The notes beneath the pieces are model-generated. The model had not been told where the DNA came from, searched no databases, and saw only the letters and a program-made list of their open reading frames with translations. A stretch of 43,931 nt of DNA, taken from NCBI RefSeq assembly GCF_002802985.1, contig NZ_NVPT01000018.1, positions 1 to 43,931 on the forward strand. Reading direction: 5' to 3'. The stretch comes from Geodermatophilus chilensis (lineage in GTDB: Bacteria > Actinomycetota > Actinomycetes > Mycobacteriales > Geodermatophilaceae). This document shows, in pieces, positions 25,868-34,496 of this stretch; the first letter of the stretch is position 1, and each line of letters begins with the position of its first letter. A program made the translations under genes and the position numbers.

Positions 25868-26866
25868 TCAGAGCGGGCGGACGGCGGCGGTGACCGAGCG
25901 GGTGCCGCCCATCCACGTCGGCAGCAGCGCCATCTTGACGCCCGGCCCGCCGGTGACCACGACCCGGACGTCGTCCGCCGAGGCCGCCACTCGCAGGTCG
26001 CCGGCCGCGTAGACCGGCGACACCCCGGCCACCCGCGCCGCGCCGGCCGCGAGCAGTGCGTTGCCCTCGTCGAACAGGAACGCGGCCGCCCGGCAGGCGT
26101 CCCAGCCGCGCGAGGACAGGAACCCGGCGAGCTCCGGTGGCAGCAGCAGGAAGTGCTCGCCGCCGCGGGAGCAGCCCGGGTCGCCGGCGGCGAGCGCCAC
26201 CCCGGCCAGGGCCGCGGCGGCCGGCGCGAGCACCTCGGCCGGCGTCCGGTAGCCCGACGCCGGCAGCACCTCGAGCACCCCGCCGGCCCCGACGACGGTC
26301 ACCGCGTCGCCGTCGGCCAGGGGCGGGAAGGGCTCCGGCAGCGACGCGGTGCAGCACGTGTACTTGCCCGGCCAGCCGATCGTCGCCATGTCGGTCAACC
26401 CGGCCCGGGCACCGCCGATGCCGGCCAGCGCCAGCGACACCGCCCGCCCGACGCAGGCGTTGGCCCGCGCGCCCGGACCGAGCCCGCCGGCGGCGGACAG
26501 TCCCAGCCCGGCGCACCCGTGCACCAGCACCGCCACCGCCGGCGACCCGGTCGTCGTCGCGATGCCCAGCAGGTTGAACCGCGGCTCGAGCGCCGCGCGC
26601 ACCGCGGCCACCACCACCGGCAGCTCGGCCGGCCGGCACCCGCCCAGCACCGCGTACCAGGCGACCGCGCGCACGGTGAGCGCGCCGAACAGCGGCGGCA
26701 CCTGCCCGAGGACGGCGTCCGGGTCGGCCGCGTCGTCCACCATCGCCGCGAGCCGCGCGGCGGTGGGTGGCACCACCGGCAGCCCGTCGCCGTGCCCGGC
26801 GGCGAGCAGCTCGGCCGCCACCGCGGCGGGGTCGGCGTCCGGGGCGGACAGCGGTAGGTCGGACAC
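25868..26866 (-). CDS. Conserved protein of unknown function, paralogue 2 of the UGSC operon
   Basis: A 332-residue, probably cytoplasmic protein, clearly paralogous to its upstream neighbour. Both share a start like GWGDGLP-VxPTxARxAA, the block GCRPAxLPVVxAAVRAL, a central GxGxRANAxxGRAV and GGAR.G..D.AT.G.P.KYT.C. This copy has GCSRGGEHFLLLPPEL in its second half. It begins 3 bp after the stop of that neighbour and is the last gene of the operon. I do not recognise a characterised member of this family, which I associate with UGSC proteins by context only. Confidence 0.75.
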   Translation of the reverse strand: MSDLPLSAPDADPAAVAAELLAAGHGDGLPVVPPTAARLAAMVDDAADPDAVLGQVPPLFGALTVRAVAWYAVLGGCRPAELPVVVAAVRAALEPRFNLLGIATTTGSPAVAVLVHGCAGLGLSAAGGLGPGARANACVGRAVSLALAGIGGARAGLTDMATIGWPGKYTCCTASLPEPFPPLADGDAVTVVGAGGVLEVLPASGYRTPAEVLAPAAAALAGVALAAGDPGCSRGGEHFLLLPPELAGFLSSRGWDACRAAAFLFDEGNALLAAGAARVAGVSPVYAAGDLRVAASADDVRVVVTGGPGVKMALLPTWMGGTRSVTAAVRPL

Positions 26867-26869
26867 GGT

Positions 26870-27898
26870 TCAGGAACGGGCGGGCACGGCGCGCGACACC
26901 GCCGCCGTCGCTCCGAACGACGGGATCCACACCGAGTGCTTCCCCGCTCCCCCGGCCACCAGCACGTGCAGCCTCTCCGGGCCGGTGCTCACCGGGTACG
27001 CGTCGCCGTCGGGCAGCACGCCCCAGTCCTCGAACTGCCGCTGGTTGGCCTCCGAGACCCTCGACACCGGGATCCGCGCCCGCTCCCACAGCGCGTCGCG
27101 GACCGCGTCGGCCGTCCACCCGTCGCGGGCGAACGTCGCTGCGTGCTCCGGGCCGAGCACCAGGAAGTGCGGGCCCTTCACGTACACGTTGTTCGACCCC
27201 GGCTGGGCCATCGTCCCGGCGATGGTGAGCAGCAGGTCCTCGGCCGTCGTCCCGCCGTGGTCGTTGACGTTGTGCGGCCCCTCCGTCGCCGCGACGGTCA
27301 CCACCGACTCCCCCGGCGCGAAGCCGCGGCGCACCGAGAACGGCGGGAACGGGCTCTCCTCCTCGTTCTCCCCGAAGCAGAAGGTGTACTTCGCCGGCCC
27401 GCCCTGCGTCGCCCGGTCCATGACGCCCGGCCGCGCCCCGCCGACGTGCGTGGTCACCAGCTGCACCGCCCGGCCGATGACCGCGTTGGCGCGGGTGCCC
27501 TGGCCCAGACAGTTGCTGCCGGAGTTGATGCCCAGCTCCGCGCGCACCGGGCCGCTCACCACGACCATCGGCGCGCACGGGTGCGTCGTCGCCAGCACGC
27601 CGTGCAGGTTGTACTCGGGCGCCTGCAGCGCGCGGACCGCGGCCAGCACCACCGGCAGGTCCGCCGGCCGGCACCCGGCCATCACCCCGTTGGCCGCGAG
27701 GCTCTCCCGGGTCGGCACCAGCCCGGACGGCGGCAGCGGCCCCAGCTCCAGGTCGATGCCGTCGAGCGCGGCCAGCGCCGCCGCGACCCGGGCCGGCGTC
27801 GGGGCCACCAGCGGCAGCCCGTCACCCCAGCCGCGGCGGTACGCCTCCTCCTGCCAGCTCTCCTCGGTCACCCCGGGCAGGTCGAGCACGGCACTCAC
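26870..27898 (-). CDS. Conserved protein of unknown function, paralogue 1 of the UGSC operon
   Basis: A 342-residue protein of the same family as the next gene. Segments: GWGDGLPLVAPTPARVAAAL near the N-terminus, AGCRPADLPVVLAAVRAL (~95), GTRANAVIGRAVQLV (~170), VMDRATQGGPAKYTFCFGE (~200) and a C-terminal part with VYVKGPHFLVLGPEHA. GTG 27898 overlaps the TGA of the selenoprotein gene (GTGA), so translation is coupled: ribosomes must pass the in-frame TAG upstream to terminate there. Function is unknown; two linked paralogues suggest a heteromer. Confidence 0.78.
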   Translation of the reverse strand: MSAVLDLPGVTEESWQEEAYRRGWGDGLPLVAPTPARVAAALAALDGIDLELGPLPPSGLVPTRESLAANGVMAGCRPADLPVVLAAVRALQAPEYNLHGVLATTHPCAPMVVVSGPVRAELGINSGSNCLGQGTRANAVIGRAVQLVTTHVGGARPGVMDRATQGGPAKYTFCFGENEEESPFPPFSVRRGFAPGESVVTVAATEGPHNVNDHGGTTAEDLLLTIAGTMAQPGSNNVYVKGPHFLVLGPEHAATFARDGWTADAVRDALWERARIPVSRVSEANQRQFEDWGVLPDGDAYPVSTGPERLHVLVAGGAGKHSVWIPSFGATAAVSRAVPARS

Positions 27899-29310
27899 GA
27901 CAGACCCCTCGCCTCGTCGGCCATCCGCAGCAGCTCGGCCGCCGCACCGTCGATCCGCCCGGCCAGCTCATCGGCGTTCAGCCCGCCGACCGGGTGCGGG
28001 ACGACGACGAGCCGCGGCTGCACCCGTCGCGCCTGGGCCTGCGCCTGCACCAGCGGCAGGAACGTCTCGGTCACCACCAGGGGTGCCACGACGCCGCGCT
28101 TCTCCAGTTCCACCGAGTCGTGGAGACTCCACGACGAGCACGAGCCCTAGTCGGCGACCGCGACCAGCACCATCTTGAAGCGCTGCGACAGCCAGTCGAT
28201 CTGGTCCTCCTCGGCCGGCATCGAGGCGCTCTCCTTGGCCGCGAAGCCCAGTTCCGGCAGGCCCCAGTGCGCCTGCAGCCGCGCACCCAGCCCGCGCAGC
28301 AGCTCGGTCGCGTTCGGCTTGGAGTTGGTGAACAGCGCGACGTCGGTCCACGTCGCCGTGCTGGCGGCGGTGTCCACCGGCCCGGCGTCGTCCTCGGGCA
28401 GCACGCCGTACGTCGGGTCGACGATGCGCAGCGACCCGGCCGCGGCCGACAGCGCTGCCACCGCGGCCTCCCCGGCGGCGCGACCGTCGGCCTCGGCCGC
28501 GGCCAGCGACTGCTCCGCCCCGGCGCCCGCGTCGCCGGCCACGAGCACGCCGTCCCCCGGCAGCACGCGGCCCTCCGCGTCGGCGGACAGCCCGGCCACC
28601 AGGCCCTCCGGGCCGCGGCGGCCCACGAACGGGAACACCCCCGCGACCCCCAGCTCGCGCTCCCCGTCGGCCGTGCGGACGGCGAGCCCCGACAGCACGC
28701 CCTCGCCGCGCAGCGCGGTGACGGTCGCACCGGTCACCACCTCGACCGGCTCGGCCGCCGCCAGCCGCGCCGCGCGATCCGGCGACCAGCGCGGCGCGCC
28801 CGGCACCAGCACGGTCACCGCCGACGCGAAGCCGGCCAGCTCGAGCGCCTCCTCCGCCGTCCACTCGTCGTCGCCGACCACGGCGACCGCGCGGCCGCGG
28901 AACAGCGGCCCGTCGCAGCCCGCGCAGGTGGAGACGCCCCGGCCGACGAGCGCCTCCTCCCCCGGCAGTCCCAGCCGCCCGGCGGACAGCCCGGCCGCGA
29001 CGACGACCACCCCGGCGGCCACCTCGCCGTCGGCGGTCTCCAGCCGCGCCGGCGTCCCGGGGTGCACCCGGGTGACCTCGGTGTGGGCGATCCGCACACC
29101 GGCGCCCTCGGCCGCCGCGGTCAGCGCCGCCGTCAGCTCGGGACCGGTCCCGCCGGGGTGGTCGTGCAGCGTCGTCAGGTTGACCAACTGCCCACCCGGG
29201 CTCATCCGTTCGTAGGCGACGACGCGCAACCCGCGCTCGGCGGCGGTCCGCGCGGCGGTGAGGCCGGCGATCCCCGCGCCGACGACGGCGACGTCCCAGT
29301 CGGTGTTCAC
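27895..29310 (-). CDS. Flavoprotein-UGSC fusion, selenoprotein with UAG-encoded Sec388
   Basis: Read through the TAG at 28147-28149 this is a 471-residue protein. Residues 1-295 resemble thioredoxin reductases: FAD motif VVGAGIAGL (9-17), redox motif CAGC (129-132), a second dinucleotide region GDDEWTAEEA (146) and VLVAGDAG (255-262). Residues ~296-471 match the UGSC family: FTNSKPNATELL (~327), then VAVAD-[TAG]-GSCSSW, HDSVELEKRG and VVTETFLPL. The family signature is U-G-S-C, with Sec or Cys in front of GSC; here that codon is TAG. A SECIS-like hairpin follows directly. GTG 29310 overlaps the upstream stop and TGA 27895-27897 overlaps the next start. If not recoded, it would be a 387-residue flavoprotein plus a 72-codon orphan frame (28113-27895) without a ribosome binding site. 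Confidence 0.8.
28117..28149 (-). promoter_or_regulatory. UAG selenocysteine codon and bacterial SECIS-like stem-loop
   Basis: On the minus strand TAG (28149-28147) is followed by 11 nt, then GTCGTGGA (28135-28128), loop GTC (28127-28125) and TCCACGAC (28124-28117). The 8-bp stem is perfect. The apical loop is 3 nt with G first, 20 nt after the codon. This fits the known bacterial SECIS consensus: stem of 4-16 bp, apical loop of 3-14 nt with G in its first two positions, 16-37 nt from the Sec codon. Confidence 0.75.
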
Positions 29311-30371
29311 GCGACCAGCCCCCTCGAGATGTGCGGCCACAACGCGTCGGCGCCCTCGGCGGCCAGCCGGCGGCCCAGCTCGCGGCTCCAGTACCGCTCG
29401 CCGCCGAACTCGTCGCGCCACGACCACAGCCGGCGGGTGAGCTGGCCCAGCTCGTACTCCTTGGTCATGCCGATCGCGCCGTGCGCCTGGTGGGCCGCCC
29501 GGGCGGCGACCGTCGCCGCCTCGCCGGCCGCCGCCTTGGCCGCCGCGACGTCGTCGAACGCGGGGTCCGGCCGGGCGTTCAGCGCGGCGACCTGCGCCGC
29601 GAGCCCGGCCAGCTGGGCCTCCTCCGCGATCGTCACCAGGTGCGCCTGCACCGCCTGGAAGCGGGCCACCGGGCGGCCGAACTGCTGGCGCTCGCCGGTG
29701 TAGCGCACGGTGAGCTCGGTGACCCGGGCCAGCGCGCCGGCGATCTGCGCTGTGCGGGCCAGTGCCCCGCGCAGCCGCAGCGCCGCGGTGTCCACCCCGT
29801 CCGGGGCCGGGGCGATGTCCGCGTCGGCGAGCTCGACGTCGTCCCACACGAGGGTGTCGCGCGGCTCGGCGGCGAGGTTGCGGCCCGGCGTGACGGTCGC
29901 CGCGTCGATCGGCGCCGCGACGACGAACCGCTGCCCGCCGCTCTCGGCGAGGGCGACCACCCGGGTGCTGCGCCCGCCCCACGGCACCCGGCTCAGCCGC
30001 GCGGAGAACCGCCGCCCGGTGAGCTCCGCGACGTCGTCGGGTCGGCCGACCGCCACCGACAGCGGGCCCCCGGGCAGCTCCAGCCCGGCGGCGGCCAGCG
30101 CCCAGCCGGCGAGCAGCCCGGTCTCGGCCAGCGGCACCGGGGCGGCGAACCGGCCGGCGACGGTCAGCAGCGCGCAGGCGTCGGCGACGTCCCCGCCGGA
30201 GCCGCCGGCCGCCTCGGGCACCGACACCAGCGGGAAGCCGGCCTCGGTGAGCGCGTCCCAGAGCCGCCCGCTCCAGCCGGTCGCCTCCGCGGCGACGACG
30301 TCCTCGGGCGTGCACAGGTCGCGGAACAGGCCGGTCGCGACCTCGGTCAGCATTCGCCGGTCGTCACTCAT
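29307..30371 (-). CDS. Acyl-CoA dehydrogenase, small/second subunit type
   Basis: A 354-residue acyl-CoA dehydrogenase-fold protein. The middle domain has RDTLVWDDVELADADIAP, and the C-terminal helical domain has TAQIAGALARVTELTVRYTG followed by ERQQFGRPVARFQAVQAHL. It ends with QAHGAIGMTKEYELGQLTRRLW. Actinobacterial FadE pairs, such as those in steroid degradation, form alpha2beta2 heterotetramers in which one subunit is this shorter type. ATG 30371 overlaps the stop of the first dehydrogenase (ATGA), consistent with a two-subunit enzyme. The stop overlaps the selenoprotein start. Confidence 0.85.
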   Translation of the reverse strand: MSDDRRMLTEVATGLFRDLCTPEDVVAAEATGWSGRLWDALTEAGFPLVSVPEAAGGSGGDVADACALLTVAGRFAAPVPLAETGLLAGWALAAAGLELPGGPLSVAVGRPDDVAELTGRRFSARLSRVPWGGRSTRVVALAESGGQRFVVAAPIDAATVTPGRNLAAEPRDTLVWDDVELADADIAPAPDGVDTAALRLRGALARTAQIAGALARVTELTVRYTGERQQFGRPVARFQAVQAHLVTIAEEAQLAGLAAQVAALNARPDPAFDDVAAAKAAAGEAATVAARAAHQAHGAIGMTKEYELGQLTRRLWSWRDEFGGERYWSRELGRRLAAEGADALWPHISRGLVA

Positions 30372-31504
30372 GCGGCCAGCCCCTTCGCGGCGACGGAGCG
30401 GAGGATCTCGGTGGTGCCGCCGCGCAGCGTGTACGACGGCGAGGTCAGCACCGCCTCGGCGAGCAGCGCCTGGAACAGCGAGTCCGAGCCCTGGTCCGGC
30501 TCGGACTCCGCCGCCTCGCGCAGCGCCTCGACGAGGTCCTGCTCGAAACGGGTGCCGACCTCCTTGACCAGCGCCGCCTCGACCGCGGGCGCCTCGCCCG
30601 CGTCGAGCGCGCGGGCGACCGACAGCGACAGGTGCCGGATCGCCCGTGCGCGGGCGGCCAGCCGGCCGAGGACGGCGGCCTCCTCGCCGGAGACGGCCGG
30701 CCCCCGCTCGCGCAGCCACGCGCGCAGCACCGGGAAGGTCGACAGCCAGCGGTCCGGACCGGAGCGCTCGTAGGCCAGCTCGCTGGTCACCTGCTTCCAG
30801 CCGGAGCCGAGCTCGCCGAGCACCATGTGGTCCGGTACGAAGACGTCCTCGAGCGCGACCTCGTTGAAGTGGTGCGAGCCGTCGAGGTACGGGATCGGTG
30901 AGATGCGGACGCCGTCCGCGTGCAGGTCGACGATCAGCTGGGACAGCCCGGCGTGCTTGTTGCCCTCCTCCATCGGCGAGGTCCGGCAGAGGACGGCGAA
31001 GTAGTGGTTGTTGTGCGCCTCGCTGGTCCACACCTTGGTGCCGGTGACCGTCCAGCCGCCCTCGACCCGGGTGGCGCGGGTACGCACCGAGGCGAGGTCG
31101 GAACCGGAGTCGGGCTCGCTCATGCCGAGGGAGAAGTAGACCTCGCCGGCGGCGATGCCGGGCAGGAACCTCCGCCGCTGCTCTTCGGTGCCGAAGTGCA
31201 GCAGCGCCGGCGCGGTCTGCCGGTCGGCGACGAAGTGCGCCCCGATCGGCGCGCCGGCGGCGAGCAGCTCCTCCGCGACGACGAACCGGTCGACCGCGCT
31301 GCGGCCGTGCCCGCCGTACTCGGGCGGGATGGCCATGCCGACCCAGCCGCGCTTCGCCAGCGTGCGGGAGAACTCGGGGTCGTGCCGGCCGGCGAAGCCG
31401 AGCGCGGGCCGGTGGTCCGGTGGCAGCTCGGTGGCGAGGAACGCGCGCACCTCGGCGCGCAGCGCCTCCTCGGCGGGGCTGAGCACGGTGGGGGCGAACT
31501 GCAC
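30368..31504 (-). CDS. Acyl-CoA dehydrogenase, large/first subunit type
   Basis: A 378-residue FAD-dependent acyl-CoA dehydrogenase that oxidises acyl-CoA to enoyl-CoA. Visible family motifs: YFSLGMSEPDSGSDLASVRT (substrate/FAD loop), GGWTVTGTKVWTSEAHN, HFNEVALEDVFVPD and the C-terminal YTLRGGTTEILRSVAA. GTG 31504 is preceded by AGGAGGG. It forms an overlapping pair with the next dehydrogenase gene. The acyl substrate is unknown; the operon context suggests a CoA-activated carboxylic acid. Confidence 0.88.
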   Translation of the reverse strand: MQFAPTVLSPAEEALRAEVRAFLATELPPDHRPALGFAGRHDPEFSRTLAKRGWVGMAIPPEYGGHGRSAVDRFVVAEELLAAGAPIGAHFVADRQTAPALLHFGTEEQRRRFLPGIAAGEVYFSLGMSEPDSGSDLASVRTRATRVEGGWTVTGTKVWTSEAHNNHYFAVLCRTSPMEEGNKHAGLSQLIVDLHADGVRISPIPYLDGSHHFNEVALEDVFVPDHMVLGELGSGWKQVTSELAYERSGPDRWLSTFPVLRAWLRERGPAVSGEEAAVLGRLAARARAIRHLSLSVARALDAGEAPAVEAALVKEVGTRFEQDLVEALREAAESEPDQGSDSLFQALLAEAVLTSPSYTLRGGTTEILRSVAAKGLAA

Positions 31505-31567: not shown

Positions 31568-32305
31568 TCAGGCGGTCTCGCGCCGCCGCTGGGACCACAT
31601 CTGGGTGGCCCGCTCGAAGTGCAGCGCGGCCTCCCAGCCGATCCCGGGCGGGCCGGCCTCGGTGCGGAAGGAGCGGGCCGCCTCCCGGGCCAGCTCGGGG
31701 TCCTTGGCCGCGCGGCCGGCGAGCTCGAGGGCGAGGTCCTCGACCTGGTCGTCGGGCACCGCCTTCCACGCCAGGCCGATCTCGGCGGCGCGGACACCGT
31801 CGATCTCCTCGCTGAACAGCCCCATGGCGGCGGTGGCCTCGCGGCCCGCCGTCCGGCTGCTGATCGTGAAGTAGCCGCCGCCCGGGTGCAGGCCGATGCG
31901 CAGGAAGCCGGCCAGCAGCCGGGCGTCCTCGGCGACGATGCGCAGGTCGGTGGAGAGCGCCAGGTTGATGCCGGCGCCGACCGCGGCACCGCGCACCGCG
32001 GCGATCGTCGGCACCTGCAGCGTGCCCACCCGGCGGAAGGCGGTGTAGACCGCGCCGAGCTCCTTGTAGGTCTTGTCCTCGGCCTGGTCGCTACCCGGCG
32101 TCCACCGCCGGCGGTCCGCGCCCGAGCAGAACGTGCCGCCCGCCCCGCGGACGACGGCCGCGCCGATCGCCGGGTCGGCGTCCACCTCGTCGCACAGCTC
32201 CGACAGCTGCAGCCCCATCTCCGGGGTGAGCCCGTTCTTGACGTCGGGCGAGTCGACCGTGAACACGGCGACGCCGCCGTGCCGCTCCAACTGGATCTGT
32301 CCCAC
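31568..32305 (-). CDS. Crotonase-family protein (enoyl-CoA hydratase/isomerase-like)
   Basis: A 245-residue crotonase fold protein: GTFCSGADRRRW (first oxyanion-hole loop), VRGAAVGAGINLALSTDLRI (second) and the LRIGLHPGGGY segment. The two catalytic glutamates of classical enoyl-CoA hydratases seem to be missing: the first position, PE in most members, reads GF, and the second, in the helix after TAG, reads Ala. It may therefore catalyse isomerisation or another CoA-ester reaction. GTG 32305 is chosen for the match with family N-termini. It lies 46 bp after the synthetase stop and 63 bp before the dehydrogenase. Confidence 0.82.
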   Translation of the reverse strand: MGQIQLERHGGVAVFTVDSPDVKNGLTPEMGLQLSELCDEVDADPAIGAAVVRGAGGTFCSGADRRRWTPGSDQAEDKTYKELGAVYTAFRRVGTLQVPTIAAVRGAAVGAGINLALSTDLRIVAEDARLLAGFLRIGLHPGGGYFTISSRTAGREATAAMGLFSEEIDGVRAAEIGLAWKAVPDDQVEDLALELAGRAAKDPELAREAARSFRTEAGPPGIGWEAALHFERATQMWSQRRRETA

Positions 32306-32351
32306 GCTGGGTGTCCTGCCTCTCTGCTGGGGGGTGGTCTGCCGAGGATGC

Positions 32352-34496
32352 CTACTCGCCCACGGGCTCCCGCGAGCCGGTGGTGCGCACGAGGACGTCG
32401 ACGGCGGTGGCGCCCCGCCCACGCGGCGCGACGATGAGCGGGTTGACCTCGAACTCGGTCAGCCGGTCGCCCGCGGCGAGCGCGGCCTGCGCCAGCCGGG
32501 CGACGGCGTCCACCGCGGCCGGGACGTCGGCGGGCTCGGCGCCGCGGAAGCCGGCCAGCAGCGGCCAGGCCCGCAGGCTGCGCAGCATCGCCCACGCCTC
32601 CTCCGGGGTCACCGGCGCCAGCGCCGAGGCGAGGTCGCGGTACAGCTCGGTGGTGACCCCGCCGAGGCCGACGGTCACCACGGGCGGGAAGCCGTCGCGC
32701 CCGGCGGTCACCGCGAGGATCAGCTCGGTGCCCGGCGGGACGAGCTCCTGCACGAGCACGCCCTCGACCCCGGGGACGTGGTGCGCCCGCGCGGCGTCGA
32801 GCAGCTCGGTGAAGACGGCGGCCGCCTCGTCGGGGCCCACGCCCACCCGCACCCCGCCGACCTCGCTCTTGTGCGCCAGGTCCCCGGCGGCCAGCTTGAG
32901 CACGCCCGGGCCGGGCAGCGCGGCGACCGCCTCCCGCGCCGCCTCGGGGGTGGTCACCAGCGTGGACGACGGCTGCGCGATGCCGACCGTCCGCAGCAGC
33001 GCCGCGCCGTCCACCACCGGGGCCTCGAGCAGCGCGCGCACCTCCGCGGCCGGGACCTCGGGCACCGGCGGCAGCGGCGGCGGGGTGCCGCGGTGCCGCT
33101 GCGGGGCCAGCCGGGCGGCGACCCGGGCGAGGTCGCCGACCGAGCCGAACACCGGGACGCCGGCCTCGCGGAAGACCCGTCGTCCCTCGACGGTGAGCTC
33201 CTGCCCGGCGATCCAGCCGACGAGCAGCGGGCACGGGAGCTTGGCGGCCGTGGCAACGAGGTCCTCGGCCAGCCGGGCGCCGGCTTCGCCGACGACCATG
33301 GTCACGAGGACGGCGACGACGTCCACCGCGTCGTCCTCGGCGATGATCCGGCAGACGTCGCCGAAAGCGTGCGCGCCCCGGTTGAACAGCTGCGCGGTGA
33401 CGTCGACCGGGTTGGCCAGCGCGCCGAAGGGCGGGATCAGCGGGCGCAGCCGCGCCTGGGTGGCGGCCGAGAGCTCGAGCAGCTGCAGGCCGACGTCCTC
33501 GCACTGGTCGGCGGCCAGGCTGCCGGCTCCGCCGGAGGTCGTGACGACGGCGACCCGCGGCCCCTCCGCCGGCTTCCCGGCAGCCAGCACCGCGGCGACC
33601 GCGAGCAGCTCGTCGATGTCCTCGACGAGCACCACGCCGTATCGCCGGGAGGTGAGCACGAAGGCGACGTCGTCGCCGAGCATCGAGCCGGTGTGGCTGG
33701 CCACGGCCCGGCGCCCGGCGCTGGACCGCCCGGAGCGCAGCACGACCAGGTGCTTGCCGGCCTCCTGGGCGCGGCGGGCCAGCTCGGCGTAGGCGGCGCC
33801 GTCGCCGGTGGCCTCCACGTAGAGCATCAGCACCCGCACCGTCGGGTCGGCCAGCAGGTGCAGCGAGACCTCGGTCAGGTCGAGGTCGGCCTGGTTGCCG
33901 GTGCTGAACCACGCCGCCAGGCCCAGCCCCATGTCGGTGGCGAGGTCGAGCACCGAGCCGCCGACCGCACCGCTCTGCCCGACGTAGGCCACACCGCTGC
34001 CCGAGGTCAGCGGCCGGTCGGCGGCGGCCGTGAAGGTCGCCACCACGCCGGTGGGCGCGTAGAGGAAGCCCTGGCAGTTCGGCCCGACGACGCGGACGCC
34101 GGTCTCCCGTGCCACCGCCGTCAGCCGCTGCTGGAGCGCCACGCCCTCGGGGCCGACCTCGGCGAACCCGGAGGCGTAGACGACGGCCGCCTTGGCGCCG
34201 ACCGCGGCGGCCTGCCGGATAGCGTCCTCGACCCGGTCGGCGGCGACGAGCACGAGCACCAGGTCGACCGGGCCCGGGACGTCGGCCAGCGTCGGGTAGC
34301 AGCGCCGGCCCACCAGCTCCTCGTAGTTCGGGTTGACCGGGTGGATGCCGCCCTCGTAGCCGTGCTCGACCAGGTAGCGAAGCGGCCGGGACATGAGGTT
34401 CTCCGACCGGCCCGAGATGCCCAGCAGCGCGATCCCGCGCGGCCGCAGCAGCGCCTGCAACCCGTCGTCGTCCGGGGGCGGCGTGGACGCGGTCAT
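32352..34496 (-). CDS. ADP-forming acyl-CoA synthetase (acetate-CoA ligase family)
   Basis: A 714-residue fused synthetase. It has a CoA-binding domain (LRPRGIALLGISGRSENLMS, then GIHPVNPNYEELVG), succinyl-CoA ligase-like domains with YVGQSGAVGGSVLD and the phosphorylated histidine in ASHTGSM (His268), and a C-terminal ATP-grasp domain (VLKLAAGDLAHKSEVGGVRV; EFEVNPLIV). It should convert an acid plus CoA and ATP to acyl-CoA, ADP and phosphate. It is the first gene of the leftward operon and would supply the CoA ester for the dehydrogenases. Its stop is TAG (32352-32354), so TAG also terminates in this genome. Confidence 0.88.
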   Translation of the reverse strand: MTASTPPPDDDGLQALLRPRGIALLGISGRSENLMSRPLRYLVEHGYEGGIHPVNPNYEELVGRRCYPTLADVPGPVDLVLVLVAADRVEDAIRQAAAVGAKAAVVYASGFAEVGPEGVALQQRLTAVARETGVRVVGPNCQGFLYAPTGVVATFTAAADRPLTSGSGVAYVGQSGAVGGSVLDLATDMGLGLAAWFSTGNQADLDLTEVSLHLLADPTVRVLMLYVEATGDGAAYAELARRAQEAGKHLVVLRSGRSSAGRRAVASHTGSMLGDDVAFVLTSRRYGVVLVEDIDELLAVAAVLAAGKPAEGPRVAVVTTSGGAGSLAADQCEDVGLQLLELSAATQARLRPLIPPFGALANPVDVTAQLFNRGAHAFGDVCRIIAEDDAVDVVAVLVTMVVGEAGARLAEDLVATAAKLPCPLLVGWIAGQELTVEGRRVFREAGVPVFGSVGDLARVAARLAPQRHRGTPPPLPPVPEVPAAEVRALLEAPVVDGAALLRTVGIAQPSSTLVTTPEAAREAVAALPGPGVLKLAAGDLAHKSEVGGVRVGVGPDEAAAVFTELLDAARAHHVPGVEGVLVQELVPPGTELILAVTAGRDGFPPVVTVGLGGVTTELYRDLASALAPVTPEEAWAMLRSLRAWPLLAGFRGAEPADVPAAVDAVARLAQAALAAGDRLTEFEVNPLIVAPRGRGATAVDVLVRTTGSREPVGE

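Follow-up and report, generated by a model that had tools for sequence, protein, structure and literature searches.

UAG-recoded selenocysteine in the Geodermatophilaceae was reportedly described by Mukai et al. in 2016. A later account records a CUA tRNA-Sec in three genomes of the family (PMC5330540), and its section 17, citing its own reference 56, places UAG in formate dehydrogenase (FDH) and in UGSC-motif proteins. UAG-encoded selenocysteine in this family, UGSC proteins included, is already a known phenomenon, and what the initial annotation had stated about these selenoproteins and their CUA tRNA-Sec agrees with that section. UGSC proteins were found in 2008 to be a major selenoprotein family of the GOS samples, and a fusion with Unknown_1 was described (PMC2398784). 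The functions of such proteins were still called largely uncharacterised in the relevant part of a 2026 review (PMC13188914).

Here, we examine a fusion gene of Geodermatophilus chilensis in a window of 43,931 nucleotides (the whole stretch of DNA analysed, contig NZ_NVPT01000018.1). With the known UAG system of the family it shares a CUA tRNA-Sec and a UAG where FDH and UGSC-motif proteins have Sec; a thioredoxin reductase (TrxR) fusion is absent from section 17 of PMC5330540, and our searches of open-licence papers returned no description of a TrxR-UGSC fusion. With the GOS selenoproteins (PMC2398784; PF24696, NF041046) it shares the U-G-S-C motif, the UxxC redox pair and a domain above the Pfam cut-off. 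However, those are TGA-encoded and, in the part of that study covering fusions, have Unknown_1 as the only described partner, whereas the partner here is a TrxR-like flavoprotein and the UGSC half scores below the NF041046 equivalog cut-off (106.9 versus 125 bits). Bacterial low-Mr thioredoxin reductase (TIGR01292) and AhpF share with it an FAD/NAD(P) domain with CxxC and a clear fold match (best Foldseek E 4.4e-26 for this half, to a bacterial TrxR), but the fusion falls below the curated cut-offs (156.9 versus 343.45 bits for TIGR01292) and carries a C-terminal selenoprotein domain; because TIGR01292 is not reached, we call the N-terminal half TrxR-like only. What is added here to UAG-encoded selenocysteine in the family is a hairpin, a comparison of 43 loci that sets TGA against TAG, the UCA-keeping genera and the partner genes; the 2016 work may already list the fusion gene itself. 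The features of the locus are as follows.

25868..26866, minus strand: assoc2, a 332-aa paralogue of assoc1.
26870..27898, minus strand: assoc1, a 342-aa conserved protein without a Pfam or NCBIfam family.
27895..27898, minus strand: GTGA, in which the TGA stop of the fusion overlaps the GTG start of the next gene.
27895..29310, minus strand: gene of the putative TrxR-like/UGSC fusion selenoprotein; GTG start, 471 codons, codon 388 TAG, TGA stop.
27925..28425, minus strand: UGSC domain PF24696, residues 296-462, 126.9 bits (gathering cut-off 25).
28117..28135, minus strand: bSECIS-like hairpin, nucleotides 15-33 from the U of UAG; 8-bp stem, AGUCU apex.
28147..28149, minus strand: UAG codon with predicted reading as Sec388, from column conservation and the TAG/TGA contrast.
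28399..28434, minus strand: low-confidence inter-domain linker, residues 293-304; pLDDT below 50 at 293-298 and 301-304.
28474..29298, minus strand: TrxR-like FAD/NAD(P) domain, residues 5-279; TIGR01292 156.9 bits, PF07992 68.3 bits.
28915..28926, minus strand: CAGC redox motif, residues 129-132.
29307..30386, minus strand: acyl-CoA dehydrogenase-like gene (ACAD2), overlapping the fusion gene by 4 nt.
30368..31504, minus strand: acyl-CoA dehydrogenase (ACAD1).
31568..32422, minus strand: enoyl-CoA hydratase/isomerase.
32352..34496, minus strand: acyl-CoA ligase with CoA-binding, Succ_CoA_lig and ATP-grasp_5 domains, probably of the ADP-forming type.

Translation bore out the frame first proposed for the fusion: 387 residues, the TAG, GSCSSW directly after it, and 83 residues up to the TGA. 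The PF24696 match spans the TAG without a break, and a profile search of the whole genome recovered the domain at 122.9 bits with one TAG inside the match. An open frame is little proof by itself, since at the G+C of this DNA antisense frames are also long, and beyond the TAG one of the other frames lacks stops in 16 of 19 fusion orthologues. It is conservation, not openness, that lifts the frame above chance. These 19 orthologues, found among the family's 112 genomes, all have TAG in the identical column, followed by exactly 83 residues, and each has CAGC or CAAC at the redox site. Their in-frame pairwise pN/pS is 0.103/0.224 after the TAG and 0.158/0.284 before it, while the shifted frames after the TAG give ratios of 1.26 and 1.66.

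Public gene models tell another story. Among the best 120 of 204 database homologues (one of them the window's own), query coverage is at most 82%, and the named copies (thioredoxin reductase, NAD(P)/FAD-dependent oxidoreductase or similar) end at or before the TAG, just the truncation by gene callers that had been foreseen. These models would suit a UAG that is a true stop, with a 387-aa TrxR-like protein as the product and the 83 downstream codons as a decayed remnant or a separate frame. TAG does serve as a terminator in this organism: of 75 coding-like ORFs in the stretches of G. chilensis analysed, 10 have it as their stop, one being the frame antisense to the fusion gene, which leaves up to 9 of 74. 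(The selB gene of this UAG-recoding genome, L009:6148-7923, minus strand, itself ends in TAG.) Nevertheless, we give this reading hardly any credence. Purifying selection continues past the TAG with constant length in the 19 orthologues, the TAG sits exactly at the Sec column where 28 of 28 outgroup loci have TGA, a hairpin is conserved after the codon, and the GTGA overlap sets the start of the next gene on the read-through stop. This last arrangement, in which assoc1 begins on the stop of the fusion, favours read-through and, we infer, coupled translation. Because TAG still ends ordinary ORFs, UAG appears to be recoded locally and not reassigned; release could then compete at codon 388, and a 387-aa product may be made in addition to the full-length selenoprotein.

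UGSC matches in the Geodermatophilaceae number 95, in 54 of 112 genomes: 72 contain one TAG, 23 contain no stop and none contains TGA. We read 68 of the 95 individually, namely 45 TAG copies and the 23 stop-free ones. In all 45 TAG copies, TAG is the U of U-G-S-C, which answers the question raised in the initial annotation of whether it always falls at the Sec/Cys column. The stop-free copies comprise 18 with C-G-S-C, four with DCAGC or DCGAC and a Cys at the site, and one (G066) without the motif. All 34 aligned UGSC rows have the U/C residue and, three positions later, a Cys. Elsewhere in the same order there are another 34 UGSC matches (stops counted within the match; the G221 match ends short of the Sec column), 15 with TGA, 19 stop-free and none with TAG. 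A search of genome contigs in GTDB release 220 with a profile of the fusion returned 45 loci, of which 43 include the Sec column (L164 and L165 being TrxR-only). At that column, TAG is found in 15 of 15 Geodermatophilaceae loci and TGA in 28 of 28 loci of other groups. The TAG is also not confined to the fusion: the second UGSC gene of G. chilensis has it at the Sec site, as does its FDH, in QARI-U-HSATVPGLG, a position that we take to be the FDH Sec site.

The tRNA follows the same pattern. In the G. chilensis genome a single tRNA-Sec scores strongly (65.1 bits), and its anticodon is CTA; a second row that passes the tRNA-Sec cut-off, L002 at 48.2 bits, is called tRNA-Ser by ARAGORN. On a single contig, selA (415.1 bits) and selB (278 bits), both above curated cut-offs, lie on one flank of the tRNA-Sec, and a selD-like gene, assigned from its AIRS and AIRS_C domains and its position, adjoins it on the other. 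The machinery that the initial annotation had proposed looking for was found, selD as a selD-like gene. Across the family, 108 of 112 genomes have a tRNA-Sec, and the anticodons of 110 genes could be read (102 CTA, eight TCA). Seven of the TCA genes belong to genomes of genera g5-g7 (G066, G068-G070, G072-G074), which retain a UCA tRNA-Sec, and the eighth is an extra copy in G058. The retention in g5-g7 allows the codon change to be placed within the Geodermatophilaceae. The two TCA genomes with UGSC (G066 and G072) have no stop within it, and the FDH Sec site is TGA in G072 and G074; two more FDH rows with TGA are listed for G071 and G073, the Sec site being confirmed in G072 and G074 only. 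By these sequence comparisons, Sec codon and tRNA-Sec anticodon switch together inside the family.

G058, of the same genus as G. chilensis, has two tRNA-Sec genes, a CTA type between selA and selD and a higher-scoring TCA type. The latter lies on contig C17 (L118:1173-1263) with an AhpD-like gene (PF02627; L118:1579-2157) 316 bases away, which has an in-frame TGA in C-F-Y-U-M-E-S-H followed by a hairpin with an AGUUU apex. The stretch has lower G+C, lies near a contig end and, by eye, includes transposase-like ORFs. Among the AhpD-like matches listed for the family, which come from 73 of its 112 genomes, no other has an internal stop. From these sequences, G058 seems to hold both UAG and UGA selenocysteine systems.

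One may ask whether the UAG is decoded as some other amino acid, for example pyrrolysine or one delivered by an amber suppressor, because ARAGORN labels the CTA tRNA as tRNA-Pyl. From the CTA tRNA, a PylS search and the Sec column, we find this very improbable. The tRNA scores as tRNA-Sec and, compared with a UCA tRNA-Sec from the family, has 7 differences in 92 positions, of which two fall in the anticodon; the best PylS match in the G. chilensis genome reaches 23.5 bits, where the cut-off is 178.15; and relatives read at the column have Sec-type stops or Cys codons. Selenocysteine remains the reading of choice, and the genome has the parts expected of a UAG-decoding system: the CUA tRNA-Sec, SelA, SelB and a putative SelD, UAG at the Sec/Cys column (twice in UGSC, once in FDH) and a predicted SECIS hairpin, seen in both sequence and folding.

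Bacterial SECIS (bSECIS) elements carry an apex of the AGU-containing kind. A stem closing an AGU-containing apex occurs at one place, nucleotides 15-33 from the codon, in each of the 24 distinct TAG sequences. Three sequence versions occur, with changes on both sides at three of the eight pairs; the two outer pairs fail to form in 5 of the 24. The same apex and core stem are present in 28 of 28 TGA orthologues and the apex is missing from the 18 distinct Cys sequences, whose mean folding energy is similar to that of the TAG genes, so that folding energy alone does not separate the two. The Ser codon of the loop is AGT in every one of the 24 distinct TAG sequences, whereas AGT accounts for 4 of the 322 Ser codons counted in 18 other genes of the window.

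Altogether, coding signal, conservation, machinery, hairpin and neighbours support insertion of Sec at UAG 388. The claim of a true selenoprotein with Sec388 thus fared well in the comparative data, including the covariation of codon and anticodon; the CUA tRNA-Sec is present, the column shows no random sense codons in the relatives read, and the downstream frame is intact in 19 of 19 orthologues. Mechanistically, the CUA tRNA-Sec would be charged by SelA with selenophosphate from SelD, and SelB, bound to the hairpin just past the codon, would deliver it to the UAG.

The neighbours of the gene hint at what the protein does. Downstream of UGSC, assoc1 is present in 43 of 43 loci and a separate assoc2 in 40 of 43. 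assoc1 has 3531 database relatives, and none of the best 120 carries a Pfam domain. Two cysteines are common to assoc1 and assoc2 rows, Cys76 (31/33 and 13/15, respectively) and Cys174 (33/33 and 13/15). Upstream, an acyl-CoA ligase, an enoyl-CoA hydratase and two acyl-CoA dehydrogenases are found in 14 of 15 Geodermatophilaceae loci, the exception (L136) missing both dehydrogenases. One cluster of Alicyclobacillus tolerans (L163) has two TGA UGSC genes and three assoc-type matches, with acyl-CoA dehydrogenases on the opposite strand. Outside the family, a separate TrxR-like gene adjoins UGSC in 13 of 28 TGA loci, and no TrxR match was seen in the fetched flank of the other 15; in the sampled loci, the TrxR-UGSC fusion is confined to the Geodermatophilaceae.

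These data suggest an electron path from NADPH to FAD, to Cys129/Cys132 of the TrxR-like half and on to Sec388/Cys391 of the UGSC half. Such an internal relay is most likely, judging from the motifs, the fusion, and the loci elsewhere in which TrxR and UGSC are separate genes side by side. The selenoprotein could also work without in-chain transfer, the fusion serving only to co-deliver its halves or the TrxR-like half reducing thioredoxin or assoc1. The 15 TGA loci without a TrxR match in the flank imply that UGSC can use another donor. Moreover, the predicted structure has a flexible linker, with a pTM of 0.58 and low confidence in the mutual orientation of the domains. At the second UGSC locus (L019:104-1498, L021; C279 in the G. 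chilensis genome), the UGSC gene instead follows an assoc1-like protein whose N-terminal CPTC segment is a weak thioredoxin-like match (19.4 bits, below the cut-off of 27). On the other hand, a direct partnership is suggested by the 19 fused orthologues and by the 13 of 28 loci in other groups where the two genes are adjacent, and we consider separate working of the halves unlikely, if still a serious contender. In the relay reading, the reduced selenol would serve a complex that includes assoc1 and assoc2 (the conserved pair of proteins encoded next), which may reduce some intermediate in the CoA-ester pathway of the operon. Taken whole, a full-length selenoprotein made via Sec388, most likely relaying electrons from the TrxR-like half to Sec and presumably serving assoc1/assoc2 in CoA-pathway reduction, is with high probability the best explanation of the locus.

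A possible chemical precedent is GrdB, the selenoprotein B of glycine/sarcosine/betaine reductase (PF07355). In a profile alignment of UGSC with GrdB the two Sec residues coincide, and a similar helix and a P-x-G segment follow Sec in both, which makes GrdB-like chemistry possible for UGSC. The hhalign probability is only 26.8% (p 6.8e-4; controls 0.2% and 0.3%), no PF07355 match to the fusion is among those listed at E up to 10, and, in contrast to GrdB, the fusion is missing a large N-terminal part; assoc1 shows no relation to that part. As for GrdB itself, matches in other Actinomycetota (L284-L298) end exactly at the Sec codon, as PF07355 does, and in all 14 that were read, out of 15 long ones, the codon is TGA and some 90 residues follow it, which suggests a Pfam model cut off at Sec. 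G. chilensis has a protein (G000:C80:5641-6057, minus strand) that matches only positions 206-347 of PF07355, without an internal stop.

The same Sec column and a near-identical hairpin, with UGA elsewhere and UAG in one family, provide a clean natural experiment on codon identity, in which the Sec codon keeps step with the tRNA anticodon across orthologous selenoprotein genes. If the G058 assembly is right, two selenocysteine codons coexist in one cell. A broad annotation error is also exposed, the database copies among the best 120 of 204 being truncated. More tentatively, the fusion with assoc1 and assoc2 could represent an undescribed NADPH-driven, Sec-dependent reductase of several phyla, mechanistically akin to glycine reductase, whose electron path in the Geodermatophilaceae was welded into one chain after the Sec codon moved from UGA to UAG, and which was placed in a CoA-ester catabolic operon. 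In any case, a conserved unnamed cassette is now marked (a UGSC selenoprotein, two uncharacterised partners and often a flavoprotein donor), and its substrate can be sought.
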